This document shows, piece by piece, positions 35,829 through 46,600 of a stretch of 64,000 nucleotides of DNA. Position numbers and translations under genes: made by a program. The stretch is from Pseudomonas sp. S04. Lineage in GTDB: Bacteria; Pseudomonadota; Gammaproteobacteria; Pseudomonadales; Pseudomonadaceae. Under the pieces are notes generated by a model. That model worked only from the letters and a program-made list of their open reading frames with translations. It was not told the DNA's origin and made no database searches. The stretch's first letter is position 1. Each line of letters begins with the position of its first letter. The stretch is taken from assembly GCF_009834545.1 (NCBI RefSeq), contig NZ_CP019427.1, positions 310,001-374,000 of the forward strand. Direction: 5' to 3'.

Positions 35829-36284
35829 TTACTTGAAGCCCAACTGCCGCCAGCCTTCGTACACGGCGACCGCCACGGTATTGGACAGGTTCAGGCTGCG
35901 GCAGCCTTCGCGCATCGGCAGGCGCAGGCGTTGGCCGTCGGGCAGGGCGTCTAGCACCTCGGCCGGCAGGCCACGGCTTTCCGGGCCGAACAGGAACGCA
36001 TCGCCCTCGGCGAAACTGGCGTCGTGAAACGGCCGCGAACCCTTGGTGGTGAATGCGAACAGGCGTGGATGGCCAAGGCTTTCCAGGCAGCTGGCAAGGT
36101 CGGCATGCCGTTGCAAGGTGGCATACTCGTGATAGTCGAGGCCGGCCCGACGCAGGCGCTTGTCATCCATCTCGAAGCCCAGTGGCTCGATCAAGTGCAG
36201 GTGGCAGCCGCTGTTGGCGCACAGCCTGATAACGTTGCCGGTATTCGGCGGAATTTCTGGTTGAAAAAGGATGACGTGAAACAT
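35829..36284 (-). CDS. trmL: tRNA (cytidine/uridine-2'-O)-methyltransferase TrmL
   Basis: This 151-residue SPOUT methyltransferase modifies the wobble base (position 34) of leucine tRNAs. The trefoil-knot motifs are IPPNTGNVIRLCANSG, FLFGPESRGLP and RSLNLSNTVAVAVYEGWRQL. Start at MFHVILFQPEI (36284). The start codon overlaps that of the divergent gene at 36283 by two bases; the longer frame to 36944 crosses the RNA repeats and is rejected. Confidence 0.95.
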   Translation of the reverse strand: MFHVILFQPEIPPNTGNVIRLCANSGCHLHLIEPLGFEMDDKRLRRAGLDYHEYATLQRHADLASCLESLGHPRLFAFTTKGSRPFHDASFAEGDAFLFGPESRGLPAEVLDALPDGQRLRLPMREGCRSLNLSNTVAVAVYEGWRQLGFK

Positions 36285-36723
36285 GCACGGCTCCGAAGGT
36301 AAAGATGGACGGCATTCTACGCCGGAAGTGGATCGGCGATCGAAGCTATTGCCGCGGGTGATGGCCTCGCTGGCGATTGTCGGCCTGATGGTGGGATTGA
36401 TGATCGGTCGCCTGACCAGCCCCGAGCCGACCGAGCTGCAGCAGGTCGAGGTCACCGGGGATGGCCTGGTGGTGTGGTTCAACCACGCGCCCAAGACCCA
36501 TGGTGAACTGATCGACGGCAGCCTCGCGCTGCTGTTCGAGGCCCAGGGGCAGGCACAGAAAGGCCAGCTCAAGCTCAACGATAAGGATGTGAACTGGCGG
36601 GTGCGTTTGAGTGACAAGGGGTTGTTGCTGACGCTGGTGGCGGCCCGGCCGCTGAAGGGCGATTGGGCCGGCAGCGAGGTGGACGATCGCTGGCGGTTGG
36701 AGATCCATCTCCAGGAGCAATAA
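36283..36723 (+). CDS. Small membrane-anchored hypothetical protein
   Basis: This 146-residue protein has one membrane segment at about 26-44 (VMASLAIVGLMVGLMIGRLT) and a soluble beta-rich part with VEVTGDGLVVWFNHAPKTH and DRWRLEIHLQEQ, probably periplasmic. No family was identified. In many pseudomonads a similar gene lies between trmL and ntrC. Its start shares bases with that of trmL on the other strand. Confidence 0.78.
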   Translation: MHGSEGKDGRHSTPEVDRRSKLLPRVMASLAIVGLMVGLMIGRLTSPEPTELQQVEVTGDGLVVWFNHAPKTHGELIDGSLALLFEAQGQAQKGQLKLNDKDVNWRVRLSDKGLLLTLVAARPLKGDWAGSEVDDRWRLEIHLQEQ

Positions 36724-36947
36724 AAGAGGAATCCCCGGCCTGCCTGTACCAAGGACCCCGAAACGGCAGGGCTCACGCGTTGCGTCGTGAGCCCGGTGTA
36801 AAGAAGGAACCCCTGACCTGCCTGTATCAAGGGCCCCAAAACTGCTTGGGCTCGTCGCTTGTGCGGTGTGAGCCCGATGTAAAGAGGGGAATCCCCGGCC
36901 TGCCTGTACCAAGGTCCCCGAAACCGGGTAGTGAACTGAATCACTGA
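36722..36947 (-). ncRNA. nrsZ: NrsZ-like nitrogen-regulated small RNA
   Basis: Three imperfect repeats (36728-36759, 36806-36837, 36888-36919) fold alike on the minus strand: an 11-bp stem with G-U pairs closing the invariant 10-base loop TACAGGCAGG. Stem bases co-vary: GGGGTCCTTGG/CCGGGGATTCC in one unit becomes GGGGCCCTTGA/TCAGGGGTTCC in another. The units are separated by hairpins at 36769-36794 and 36848-36875. The last stem is followed by TCTTTTATT, a terminator. A sigma-54 promoter lies just upstream. P. aeruginosa NrsZ, known from published work, is encoded downstream of ntrC, is controlled by NtrBC and RpoN, and is processed into three similar modules; position, promoter and modular build all agree. 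The exact ends are estimates. Confidence 0.82.
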
Positions 36948-36956
36948 ATGAACTAT

Positions 36957-36972
36957 TGCAGGGGGCGTGCCA
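36957..36972 (-). promoter_or_regulatory. Sigma-54 promoter of the NrsZ-like RNA
   Basis: On the minus strand TGGCACG-CCCC-CTGCA matches the RpoN consensus TGGCAYR-N4-TTGCW with one mismatch. It would start transcription at about 36946, just before the first module. GGTGCA half-sites of NtrC type lie farther upstream, around 37073 and 37111-37134. Confidence 0.75.
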
Positions 36973-37012
36973 GGTTTTAACGAGCTGAAACAAAATGTTG
37001 TGTTGAAACGTC

Positions 37013-37045
37013 GAAAGCCCCGTATTCCGGGGCTTTGGTGTTTTT
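37013..37045. terminator. Intrinsic terminator between ntrC and the NrsZ-like RNA
   Basis: The arms AAAGCCCCG and CGGGGCTTT enclose a short loop and are followed on the plus strand by seven T. On the minus strand the stem lies about 190 bp past the ntrC stop and could also end ntrC read-through. Confidence 0.65.
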
Positions 37046-37147
37046 TTGATAGGGGTTTTATTGCAGGTGCAGGTGGGATTTCGGATCTGTTGCCGTGCGC
37101 GATCGCGGGTCACGGTGCATTCAGGCGGTGCACGCTGGCCCTGAAAG

Positions 37148-37211
37148 CATCGCGGGCAAGTCCGCTCCCACAGGATTGTGCAAAACCTGTGGGAGCGGAC
37201 TGCCCGCGAAT
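37148..37211. repeat. REPIN (inverted REP pair)
   Basis: The copy catcgcgggcaagtccgctc and its inverted partner (acctgtgggagcggactgcc) flank an about 10-base centre identical to that at 35734-35798. It lies 24 bp from the ntrC stop. Confidence 0.9.
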
Positions 37212-37234
37212 GGATCTACAGGTCGGTGAAGGAT

Positions 37235-38671
37235 CTAACCCTCATCCCCTTCATCATCGTCCCCACCATCAACTTTCATCCCCAGCTCCTTGATCTTGCG
37301 CGTCAGGGTATTACGCCCCCAACCCAGCAAAACCGCAGCATCGCGGCGGCGGCCGGCGGTGTGCTTGAGGGCGGTTTCGATCATGATGCGCTCGAACGCC
37401 GGCACCGCGCTGTCCAGCAGGCTCGACTGGCCGCGAGCCAGCGCCTGGTCGGCCCATTGGCGCAGGGCCTGTTCCCAGTTGGTCACCGGTGCCGAGTCCT
37501 GCGGCAGGCTCAGCAACTCCGGCGGCAGGTCGCCGATGTGCACTTCGCGCCCCGAAGCCATCACCGTGATCCAGCGGCAGGTGTTCTCCAGCTGGCGCAC
37601 GTTGCCTGGCCACGGCAGGTTCTTCAGGTATTCCTCGGTTTCGCTTTTCAGCAGCTTTGGCTCCACCGCCAGCTCTTGTGCGGCGCGGGCCAGGAAGTGC
37701 TTGGCCAGGGTCGGAATGTCTTCGCGACGGTCCGACAGGCGTGGGATGTGGATGCGGATCACGTTCAAGCGGTGGAACAAGTCCTCACGGAACTTGCCGG
37801 CGTGGACCAGGGTTTCCAGGTTCTGGTGGGTCGCGGCGATGATGCGCACGTCGACCTTGACCGGTACATGGCCGCCGACCCGGTAAAACTCGCCGTCGGC
37901 CAGGACCCGCAGCAGGCGGGTCTGGGTGTCGGCCGGCATGTCGCCGATTTCATCGAGAAACAGCGTGCCGCCATCGGCTTGCTCAAAACGTCCACGGCGC
38001 AGGTTGGCGGCGCCGGTAAATGCACCTTTCTCGTGGCCGAACAGCTCGGACTCCATCAAATCCTTGGGGATCGCCGCCATGTTCAGGGCGATGAACGGCG
38101 AGGCCGCCCGTGGGCTGTGGCGGTGCAGGGCGTGGGCCACCAGCTCTTTACCGGTCCCGGACTCGCCGTTGATCAGCACGGTGATGTTGGAGTGGCTCAG
38201 GCGCCCGATGGCGCGAAACACTTCCTGCATCGCTGGCGCTTCGCCGATGATTTCCGGGGTACGGGTCAGGGCGACGGGCACTTCCAGGCCCTGTTGTTCC
38301 TGGGCGTGCTGGTTGGCGCGCTTGACCAATGACACCGCCTCGTCGACGTCGAACGGCTTGGGCAGGTACTCGAACGCGCCGCCCTGGTAGGACGCGACAG
38401 CGCTGTCCAGGTCGGAGTGCGCGGTCATGATAATCACCGGCAAGCGCGGGTGCTGTTCGCGAATCCGTGCCAGCAGATCCAGGCCACTGGCACCCGGCAT
38501 GCGGATGTCAGAGATGATCACGTCCGGTTGCTGGCGCGCCAGGCGGCTCATCACGCCATCGGCGCTGTCGAAGCTCTGCGTGGTCATGCCTTCCTGCTGC
38601 AAGGCTTTTTCCAGGACCCAACGGATAGAACGGTCGTCATCGACGATCCACACGGTTTCACTACGGCTCAT
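37235..38671 (-). CDS. ntrC: Nitrogen regulation response regulator NtrC
   Basis: This 478-residue activator of sigma-54 promoters has a receiver domain at 1-120 (VWIVDDDRSIRWVLEKAL; phospho-Asp in DVIISDIRMPG), an AAA+ domain at about 140-375 with Walker A GESGTGKELVAHALHRHS, the sigma-54 contact loop GAFTGA and Walker B GGTLFLDEIGD, and a Fis-type helix-turn-helix at the end (AAVLLGWGRNTLTRKIKEL). It overlaps ntrB by 4 bases. It probably activates glnA, the NrsZ-like RNA and perhaps hutU in this window. Confidence 0.97.
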   Translation of the reverse strand: MSRSETVWIVDDDRSIRWVLEKALQQEGMTTQSFDSADGVMSRLARQQPDVIISDIRMPGASGLDLLARIREQHPRLPVIIMTAHSDLDSAVASYQGGAFEYLPKPFDVDEAVSLVKRANQHAQEQQGLEVPVALTRTPEIIGEAPAMQEVFRAIGRLSHSNITVLINGESGTGKELVAHALHRHSPRAASPFIALNMAAIPKDLMESELFGHEKGAFTGAANLRRGRFEQADGGTLFLDEIGDMPADTQTRLLRVLADGEFYRVGGHVPVKVDVRIIAATHQNLETLVHAGKFREDLFHRLNVIRIHIPRLSDRREDIPTLAKHFLARAAQELAVEPKLLKSETEEYLKNLPWPGNVRQLENTCRWITVMASGREVHIGDLPPELLSLPQDSAPVTNWEQALRQWADQALARGQSSLLDSAVPAFERIMIETALKHTAGRRRDAAVLLGWGRNTLTRKIKELGMKVDGGDDDEGDEG

Positions 38672-39753
38672 GTCGATGTGGCTCCTTGTTCCAGTGGCAG
38701 AAAGATCGAGAAGGTGGTGTGGCCTGGATGGCTGTCACATTCGATCAGGCCCTGGTGCTGGCTGATGATGTTCTGGGTTATGGCCAGGCCCAGCCCGGTA
38801 CCGTCCGGACGACCGCTGACCATGGGAAAGAAGATGGTTTCCTGCAGGTCTGCGGGAATCCCGGGGCCGTTGTCGATGATCTCGATCTTGGTCACCAGGC
38901 GATGGCGCACGTGGCCGATGGTGAACTGGCGCATGGCCCGCGAGCGCAGGGTGATGCGGCCCAGGCGCAGCTCGTTCTGGCTGCTGATGGCTTGCATCGC
39001 GTTGCGCACGATGTTGAGGACGGCCTGGATCATCTGTTCGCGGTCGATCAGCACGTCCGGGATGCTCGGGTCGTAGTCGCGCACCAGAGTGATGCAGCCT
39101 TGGCTTTCCGCTTCCACCAGGCTGCACACGCGCTCAAGAACTTCGTGGATGTTGCACATGGCCAGCGATGGCAGTTTGTTCGAGCCGAGCATGCGGTCGA
39201 CCAGGTTACGCAGGCGATCCGCTTCCTCGATGATCACATTGGTGTAGTCCTTGAGGCTTTCCTCCGGCAACTCGCGGGCCAGCAACTGGGCCGCGCCGCG
39301 AATCCCGCCCAGCGGGTTCTTGATCTCGTGGGCCAGGCCGCGCACCAACATCTTGCTGGTTTCCTGCTTGGACAACTGCGCTTCTTCCTTGGTGATCCGC
39401 AGCAGTCGGTCGCGCGGGTGTACCTCAAGCAGCAGCAGGGTGGCACCGTTGCTCAGGATCGGCGTCACCGCGTAGTCGACGGTCAGGGTCTGGCCGGTCA
39501 GGGCGGTGAGCATCGCCTCGCGCTTGGTAAAGGGGTGGGCCTGTTCGACCGCCTGACGCAGGGAGTTCAGCGCTTCGGTCGACTCGGTGAACAGCTCGCT
39601 GATGAATTGCCCATGACTGCGCTGGCCGCTGATGGCCAGGAGCATTTCCGCCGCCGGGTTCATGTACTCAAGGCGCAGTTCGGCATTGAGCAGGATGGTG
39701 GCAGTGGTCAAGTTGTCGAGTAGCAAGCGGTGCAGTGCGTCGCTGATGGTCAT
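38668..39753 (-). CDS. ntrB: Nitrogen regulation sensor kinase NtrB (GlnL)
   Basis: This 361-residue cytoplasmic kinase has an N-terminal PAS domain (LTTATILLNAELRLEYMNPAAEML), the H-box with the phospho-His in GLAHEIKNPLGGIRGAAQLL, and the ATPase boxes NIVRNAMQAI, DNGPGIP and GTGLGLAIT. It phosphorylates NtrC under nitrogen limitation and is controlled by PII. The start at MTISDALHR (39753) has AGAGGTCCTC-type sequence before it; the frame to 39843 is rejected. Confidence 0.96.
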   Translation of the reverse strand: MTISDALHRLLLDNLTTATILLNAELRLEYMNPAAEMLLAISGQRSHGQFISELFTESTEALNSLRQAVEQAHPFTKREAMLTALTGQTLTVDYAVTPILSNGATLLLLEVHPRDRLLRITKEEAQLSKQETSKMLVRGLAHEIKNPLGGIRGAAQLLARELPEESLKDYTNVIIEEADRLRNLVDRMLGSNKLPSLAMCNIHEVLERVCSLVEAESQGCITLVRDYDPSIPDVLIDREQMIQAVLNIVRNAMQAISSQNELRLGRITLRSRAMRQFTIGHVRHRLVTKIEIIDNGPGIPADLQETIFFPMVSGRPDGTGLGLAITQNIISQHQGLIECDSHPGHTTFSIFLPLEQGATST

Positions 39754-39950
39754 GAGGACCTCTTTTGGAGCAGGCGCGCGCGAGAAGGAGGCGCTGTTGC
39801 GAGGAAAATGCAAAAACCAAACCAAGGCTCCGAAAAGAAGCAATAACTCCCTGAAATGGGCGCTTTAAGTTGCCTTGCGTGGCGTTCTGCCAGCTTTGCC
39901 GGGTATTTTCGAACCAAAATGGGTTGATAAGTGGCAAGCGTGCAAGTCGT

Positions 39951-46384: not shown

Positions 46385-46600
46385 CAGGGTTCCAAGGGGG
46401 AGCGTTGTATCCGGGCGCGGGATGATACGGGATTGGTGGTTTTTTGAACAACTTTTTCAAGGATCCGGCACGCCCCCTGCATCCTTTTGTTTCTGAACCG
46501 CTCAATTCAGGTGATTGTGCAAAACACCCGAACCAGCGACTGCACCGTTTGTCAGACCGTCTAGGCTCAGTCAATTCCATGCTCGCCCGAGGCCCTATCG

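Follow-up and report, generated by a model that had tools for sequence, protein, structure and literature searches.

The nrsZ locus of Pseudomonas sp. S04 and the varying number of hairpin modules among its relatives

The nrsZ locus and its neighbours

The window, that is, the whole 64,000-nucleotide stretch of Pseudomonas sp. S04 DNA that was analysed, carries on its minus strand the genes of an NtrB-type sensor kinase (ntrB, 38668-39765; start codon uncertain) and an NtrC-type response regulator (ntrC, 37235-38671), both recognized by their Pfam domains, which for ntrC comprise receiver, sigma-54 interaction and Fis-type HTH domains. Further upstream on the same strand is an ORF of 496 aa, which we take to be glutamine synthetase. 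On the plus strand a convergent ORF of 146 aa (36283-36723), identified from the ORF list and without a Pfam domain, approaches ntrC from the other side. Beyond it is a SpoU-type methylase gene (Pfam), presumably trmL and so called here. Of 30 stretches with a trmL-like match, a set in which one stretch is from the own genome and two are the same place, 25 contain a relative of the convergent ORF (39-85% identity outside the own genome).

The plus-strand letters of 36300-37300 were read for the description of the locus. Directly behind ntrC, on the same strand and between it and the convergent ORF, the full Rfam model of the NrsZ sRNA (RF02695) matches 36713-36930 of the minus strand with 132.9 bits (gathering cut-off 76.9, E 5e-33). 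A preliminary description of this DNA had named the element NrsZ; this match and the ntrC-type neighbour (Pfam) with the NtrB-type kinase behind it bear the name out. The locus is nrsZ, an ordinary ortholog of an already described Pseudomonas sRNA. The find is correct but the sRNA is already known, and our own contribution is comparative. At 2621-2754 of the window, also on the minus strand, the Rfam radC RNA motif (RF01754) is matched with 76.1 bits (cut-off 40).

Terminator scans place a GC-rich hairpin with a T-tract between ntrC and nrsZ, at 37014-37049 on the plus strand. A GCCCCG...CGGGGC hairpin was found in this interval in 30 of the 36 loci looked at; the antisense tail was the T-richer one in 28 of these 30, the sense tail in one, and in one the two were equal. 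In a wider scan of 49 loci, terminator-like sequence was antisense in 31 and sense in 12. As a lead only, the hairpin at 37014-37049 would end a plus-strand transcript after it had run antisense through all of nrsZ. Such a hairpin may let the convergent mRNA cross nrsZ as antisense RNA, or it may simply be bidirectional. The interval also holds, at 37159-37201, an inverted repeat whose 19-nt arms match almost perfectly (95%) across a 5-nt gap; from its look we take it to be REP-like.

Sequence, fold and orientation of the three modules

Three direct repeats of 43 nt (36722-36764, 36800-36842 and 36882-36924) follow one another at spacings of 78 and 82, in agreement with the three repeats of about 77-81 bp described earlier. 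Read on the minus strand they form modules of 45 nt, each with the loop UACAGGCAGG: module 1, the 5' module (36880-36924, loop at 36899-36908), module 2 (36798-36842, loop at 36817-36826) and module 3, the 3' module (36720-36764, loop at 36739-36748), which overlaps the stop codon of the convergent ORF and is followed by TCTTTTATT. The letters TACAGGCAGG occur exactly at these three loop positions of the minus strand, with no other exact copy in the 64 kb.

Folded alone, hairpins 1, 2 and 3 reach -17.5, -19.3 and -18.7 kcal/mol on the minus strand and -11.7, -7.4 and -7.0 kcal/mol on the plus strand. The minus-strand hairpins are the more stable ones, and the orientation proposed earlier therefore holds. 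Of the 11-bp stem with an invariant loop that had been proposed, the loop stands; the stem length does not, as the helix consists of 12 pairs around the 8-nt ACAGGCAG. The loop-closing pair is U-G, identical in the three copies, and the stem of module 1 contains one bulge or mismatch. Compensatory changes had also been claimed, and two pairs do change on both sides: columns 16-27 read GC, AU and GC, and columns 10-33 are CG in copy 2 and UA in copy 3, copy 1 being unpaired there. The T-run expected behind the last module is present as TCTTTTATT, with just four consecutive T, and linkers 1 and 2 are T-rich as well. A terminator scan of 1.1 kb gave 4 sites against 1.0 expected, and on the minus strand these include the hairpins of modules 2 and 3. 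The T-tract of the last module is weak for a terminator.

Each linker contains a hairpin of its own on the minus strand. That between modules 1 and 2 (GGGCUC...GAGCCC, 36848-36875) is seen in the sequence, in the pairing of the NrsZ alignment and in the whole fold; that between modules 2 and 3 (GGGCUCAC...GUGAGCCC, 36769-36794) is seen in the sequence and in the whole fold. The whole minus strand (238 nt) folds better than all of 200 shuffles (z -3.7), compared with z -1.7 for the whole plus strand, for which 11 of 200 shuffles were as good. The repeats are able to pair among themselves, so that modules 1 and 3 are joined in the best whole-RNA fold of the minus strand, and this counts against the mechanism proposed below.

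Promoter and NtrC-like site

The sigma-54 promoter that had been placed before the first module is found as an exact element, TGGCACGCCCCCTGCA, at 36957-36972 on the minus strand (TGGCACG-N5-TGCA, no mismatch); its first base lies 64 nt ahead of that of UACAGGCAGG in module 1. It is the sole zero-mismatch match in the window. With up to two mismatches the pattern has 25 matches in the window versus 35.8 expected, so that the exact match and its position alone carry meaning. At 46466-46481 on the plus strand a sigma-54-like site differs from the nrsZ element in its first base only.

A predicted NtrC-like enhancer site, TGC-N11-GCA, lies at 37116-37132 on the minus strand, 160 bp upstream of the first base of the promoter. 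In sequence it fits the TGC/GCA spacing rule for NtrC sites as given in an excerpt of PMC6606865.

We surveyed the window and 66 chosen loci, 67 in all and many of them closely related, with a pattern looser than the exact element (T[GT]G[CT][AC][CT][GA]-N4-6-TGC[ACT]). A sigma-54-like element precedes the first UACAGGCAGG by 47-74 nt in 67/67 loci. TGC-N11-GCA was present 20-260 bp upstream of that element in 46 loci, compared with 4.3 expected from mononucleotide shuffles, and was absent from this searched stretch in the other 21.

Distribution and module number

For the genus we used 199 genomes, sampled evenly from a larger group. The Rfam NrsZ model matches in 197 of them and exceeds its cut-off in 132; RF02695, with its three-module consensus, misses the threshold in roughly one in three of the genomes in which it matches. 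We built a one-module covariance model from aligned modules and searched it in samples of the genus, the family and the order. This check across the genus, which the preliminary description had proposed, again placed the module in 197 genomes of this sample of 199, with a stem that covaries. In the family, 162 of 198 genomes and 15 of 19 genera had matches. The order sample of 194 gave eight genomes of the own family and three weak matches in other families. We reject these three as chance: their loops are broken, and ntrC tblastn beside them gave at most a 31% receiver-domain match.

Counted as matches per genome, the 199 genus genomes hold no module in two cases, one in 60, two in 37, three in 69, four in 20, five in six, six in one, seven in three and eight in one. 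In the loci that were read these counts correspond to a single array, with one exception, G211. That genome has two separate NrsZ loci (L106; L107/L143): one module is near trmL, the other follows ntrC at a distance of about 2.4 kb, and both have a sigma-54-like element of their own. As to the two genus genomes without a match, the contig of G157 ends 156 bp behind ntrC, and G037 has no module in the roughly 4.1 kb behind ntrC.

The array is not always found behind ntrC. In G206 (genus g9, locus L112) trmL, an ORF of the 146-aa type and a four-module array lie beyond ntrC, and the array is on the strand opposite ntrC, so that it is not directly behind it. Around the single-module loci L036-L038, L041-L045, L047-L050, L059, L060, L113-L115, L123 and L128, tblastn found no ntrC or trmL within 3-5 kb; the single-module loci of genus g15 that have neither gene in the 3-5 kb examined still carry the sigma-54 element. 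In G249, one of these g15 genomes, ntrC is located on another contig. A long opposite-strand ORF follows the module in L036 and L113, of LamG or pilus type by its look.

Loop conservation and stem covariation

For a first alignment we took, from the 30 best-scoring loci and the window, all modules in which ACAGGCAG is exact and another module is no more than 150 nt away; these are 56 distinct ones, and their loop is invariant by selection. Two-sided change of a pair is seen here in 18 cells versus 5.9 +/- 1.8 in shuffles, and both the covariation score and the cells paired exceed 500 of 500 shuffles. Two of the five measures lie within the shuffles, namely the pairs with two-sided change (4; reached by 31 of 500) and the further pair types (15; reached by 281 of 500).

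With E values up to 0.01 the covariance model collected 134 modules from 59 chosen sources, which amount to 133 places because L058 and L106 hold the same place. The loop UACAGGCAGG is exact in 130 of the 134, a count from a model that was built from exact-loop modules and therefore leans towards them; the four exceptions are the three weak matches outside the family and the degenerate fourth module of G206. A second alignment, of these matches and made to fit the structure, has 22 cells with two-sided change (shuffles: 5.2 +/- 1.5), spread over 7 pairs (shuffles: 2.3 +/- 0.9), and in none of the five measures does a shuffle reach the observed value. As a control the partners were slid by +1. 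This gave 29 two-sided-change cells, more than the 22 of the structure but in two pairs only, and lowered the cells paired from 87.7% to 74.6% and the covariation score from 0.246 to 0.161. The loop is strongly kept while the stem covaries across relatives.

Growth of the arrays

Loop-to-loop units were compared in 20 arrays of at least four modules, the kinship of the species not being corrected for. Units of one array have a mean identity of 82% (136 pairs), units of different arrays one of 73% (3024 pairs). In 11 of the 20 arrays the two most similar units are 89-99% identical, consistent with recent tandem duplication; in the other nine they reach only 71-77%, about the between-array mean. 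Loops follow one another at 67-87 nt (121-129 in L126), often no multiple of three.

Target searches

In its own genome the loop complement CTGCCTGTA has 45 exact sites, three of which are nrsZ itself. The other 42 divide, by gene calls that rest on simple codon scores, into 24 that fall within a called gene, 14 on the strand opposite such a gene and four that are neither (L066, L077, L085 and L104). Seven copies (L067, L083, L095-L098 and L101) are antisense to an ORF of 265 aa and have common flanks; they therefore belong to a repeated element, perhaps an insertion sequence. Two sites at the end of an upstream gene are mildly interesting as target leads: L082 lies 57 nt before an acyl-CoA-ligase-like ORF and L089 195 nt before an assimilatory nitrate-reductase-like ORF, both ORFs being named by look.

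A seed-SD-ATG pattern occurred at 52 places in six genomes versus 15 for the reversed control, whose 8-mer may be rarer. Two coding sites like ttcA were left out, 49 stretches of these places were examined and 29 had an ORF of at least 50 aa; the only homologous pair among those 29 ORFs was ttcA, where the site is coding. The two seed searches, in the own genome and in six genomes, gave no convincing shared mRNA target by loop complement. Duplex energies between the loop and the leaders of the 46 called window genes reached z -2.5 at the strongest among the 12 lowest (mononucleotide shuffles). The gene rhlA has a narrow distribution. Since the module is near-universal in the genus, we consider rhlA unlikely to be the original target of NrsZ.

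Proposed mechanism

Our results are best explained, with a high degree of confidence, by an nrsZ gene for an NtrC/sigma-54-driven, multi-hairpin RNA whose loop pairs with mRNAs. By analogy with excerpted accounts of P. aeruginosa, phosphorylated NtrC bound upstream would activate the sigma-54 promoter when nitrogen is short, and a minus-strand RNA of roughly 220-240 nt would be made behind ntrC. This RNA would comprise three near-identical hairpins joined by linkers, the U-rich stretches of which suit cleavage; it is therefore probably cut into separate hairpins, and processing is reported for P. aeruginosa in those accounts. Each hairpin would show the loop UACAGGCAGG for pairing with mRNAs, as the motif and the rhlA activation reported there suggest. 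A role of the loop as the pairing seed would fit both its conservation and that motif. The module would be the working unit and, since related species differ in having between 1 and 8 of them, we tentatively suggest that module number probably sets the dose of units per transcript.

We consider it unlikely that the RNA is instead a protein sponge, in which the invariant loop would bind an RNA-binding protein, the repeats would titrate it and module number would be the binding capacity. RsmY, RsmZ and CrcZ, which titrate proteins by means of repeats, are the model for this idea. In its favour, a protein-binding array would likewise show repeated copies of a covarying stem with an unchanging loop, the loop-complement searches gave no conserved mRNA target, and Hfq CLIP-seq, in an excerpt of PMC6890931, found NrsZ more enriched in planktonic cells, a difference that was not statistically significant. 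Set against this, RsmA prefers GGA and the loop is without GGA, and a single module is common (60 of 199 genomes). Activation of rhlA and a functional first 60 nt, both given in review excerpts (PMC9308961, PMC8395346, PMC6321483), also count against a sponge.

Far less probable is an origin as the 3' UTR of a glnA-ntrBC transcript, released by processing and with no gene of its own. The position and orientation of nrsZ behind ntrC would suit it, as would the scarcity of sense terminator-like hairpins between the two (the 12 of 49 loci given above, the window not among them), but every surveyed locus has its own sigma-54 element and in G249 ntrC is on another contig. That the repeats are mere structural or mobile, REP-like sequence or part of a coding frame, as direct repeats crossed by an open minus frame of 371 aa might suggest, is already contradicted and has practically no chance of being right: promoter and loop are kept across the loci examined, the loop spacing is often no multiple of three, and among the matches listed each genome other than G211 has one small cluster.

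Returning to an NtrC/sigma-54-driven RNA whose loops pair with mRNAs, we put forward an extension that is possible and, taken as a whole, rather doubtful. NrsZ would be an array of a variable number of 45-nt riboregulators, each sufficient by itself; tandem duplication and loss would tune the supply of an almost unchanging 10-nt loop, at 1-8 copies per sigma-54 transcript, towards a family-wide target other than rhlA. In addition the convergent mRNA, with an antisense 3' UTR reaching up to the conserved terminator, may hold NrsZ down when nitrogen is plentiful.

A module number changed by nature from 1 to 8 around an almost constant loop amounts to a ready-made experiment, and makes two things testable. 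Firstly, a family-wide target could be sought, with the single-module species as a clean background. Secondly, repeat number in an sRNA could be examined as a control of dose. The literature searched, of limited coverage, yielded no mention of a varying NrsZ module number, which we do not claim to be unpublished, and a search with the loop letters had no match. Both the variation in module number and the strong conservation of the loop merit a brief comparative note.

Comparison with known systems

RsmY, RsmZ and CrcZ titrate proteins via GGA or A-rich motifs. They resemble NrsZ in carrying repeated short motifs in one RNA that is switched on by a two-component system. As far as the loop is concerned, which is what this comparison covers, they differ from NrsZ, the loop of which is neither GGA nor A-rich.

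NfiR of Pseudomonas stutzeri A1501 is likewise a small NtrC-dependent stem-loop RNA, described in an excerpt of PMC6606865 with the pairing stretch CGUGGAGCGGC and a locus between PST2408 and PST2409 (nasA). We considered it as a single-module form of NrsZ and rejected it; neither that pairing stretch nor the nasA-side locus, as excerpted, matches the sequence or genes here.

The closest counterpart is NrsZ of P. aeruginosa PAO1. According to excerpts of three reviews (PMC9308961, PMC8395346, PMC6321483) it is controlled by NtrB/C and RpoN, is 226 nt long and is cut into processed pieces; its first 60 nt are functional, it has the motif ACAGGCAG, and it activates rhlA translation, perhaps by opening the structure at the ribosome site of that mRNA. 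The preliminary description had held that place, control and three-part structure are those of P. aeruginosa NrsZ, and these passages agree on the place, the control and ACAGGCAG. The likeness, as far as the excerpts go, extends to a position between ntrC and PA5126 (or its like), to a length of about 226 nt and to the RF02695 consensus, likewise with three such loops. The two RNAs differ in their stem and linker sequences.
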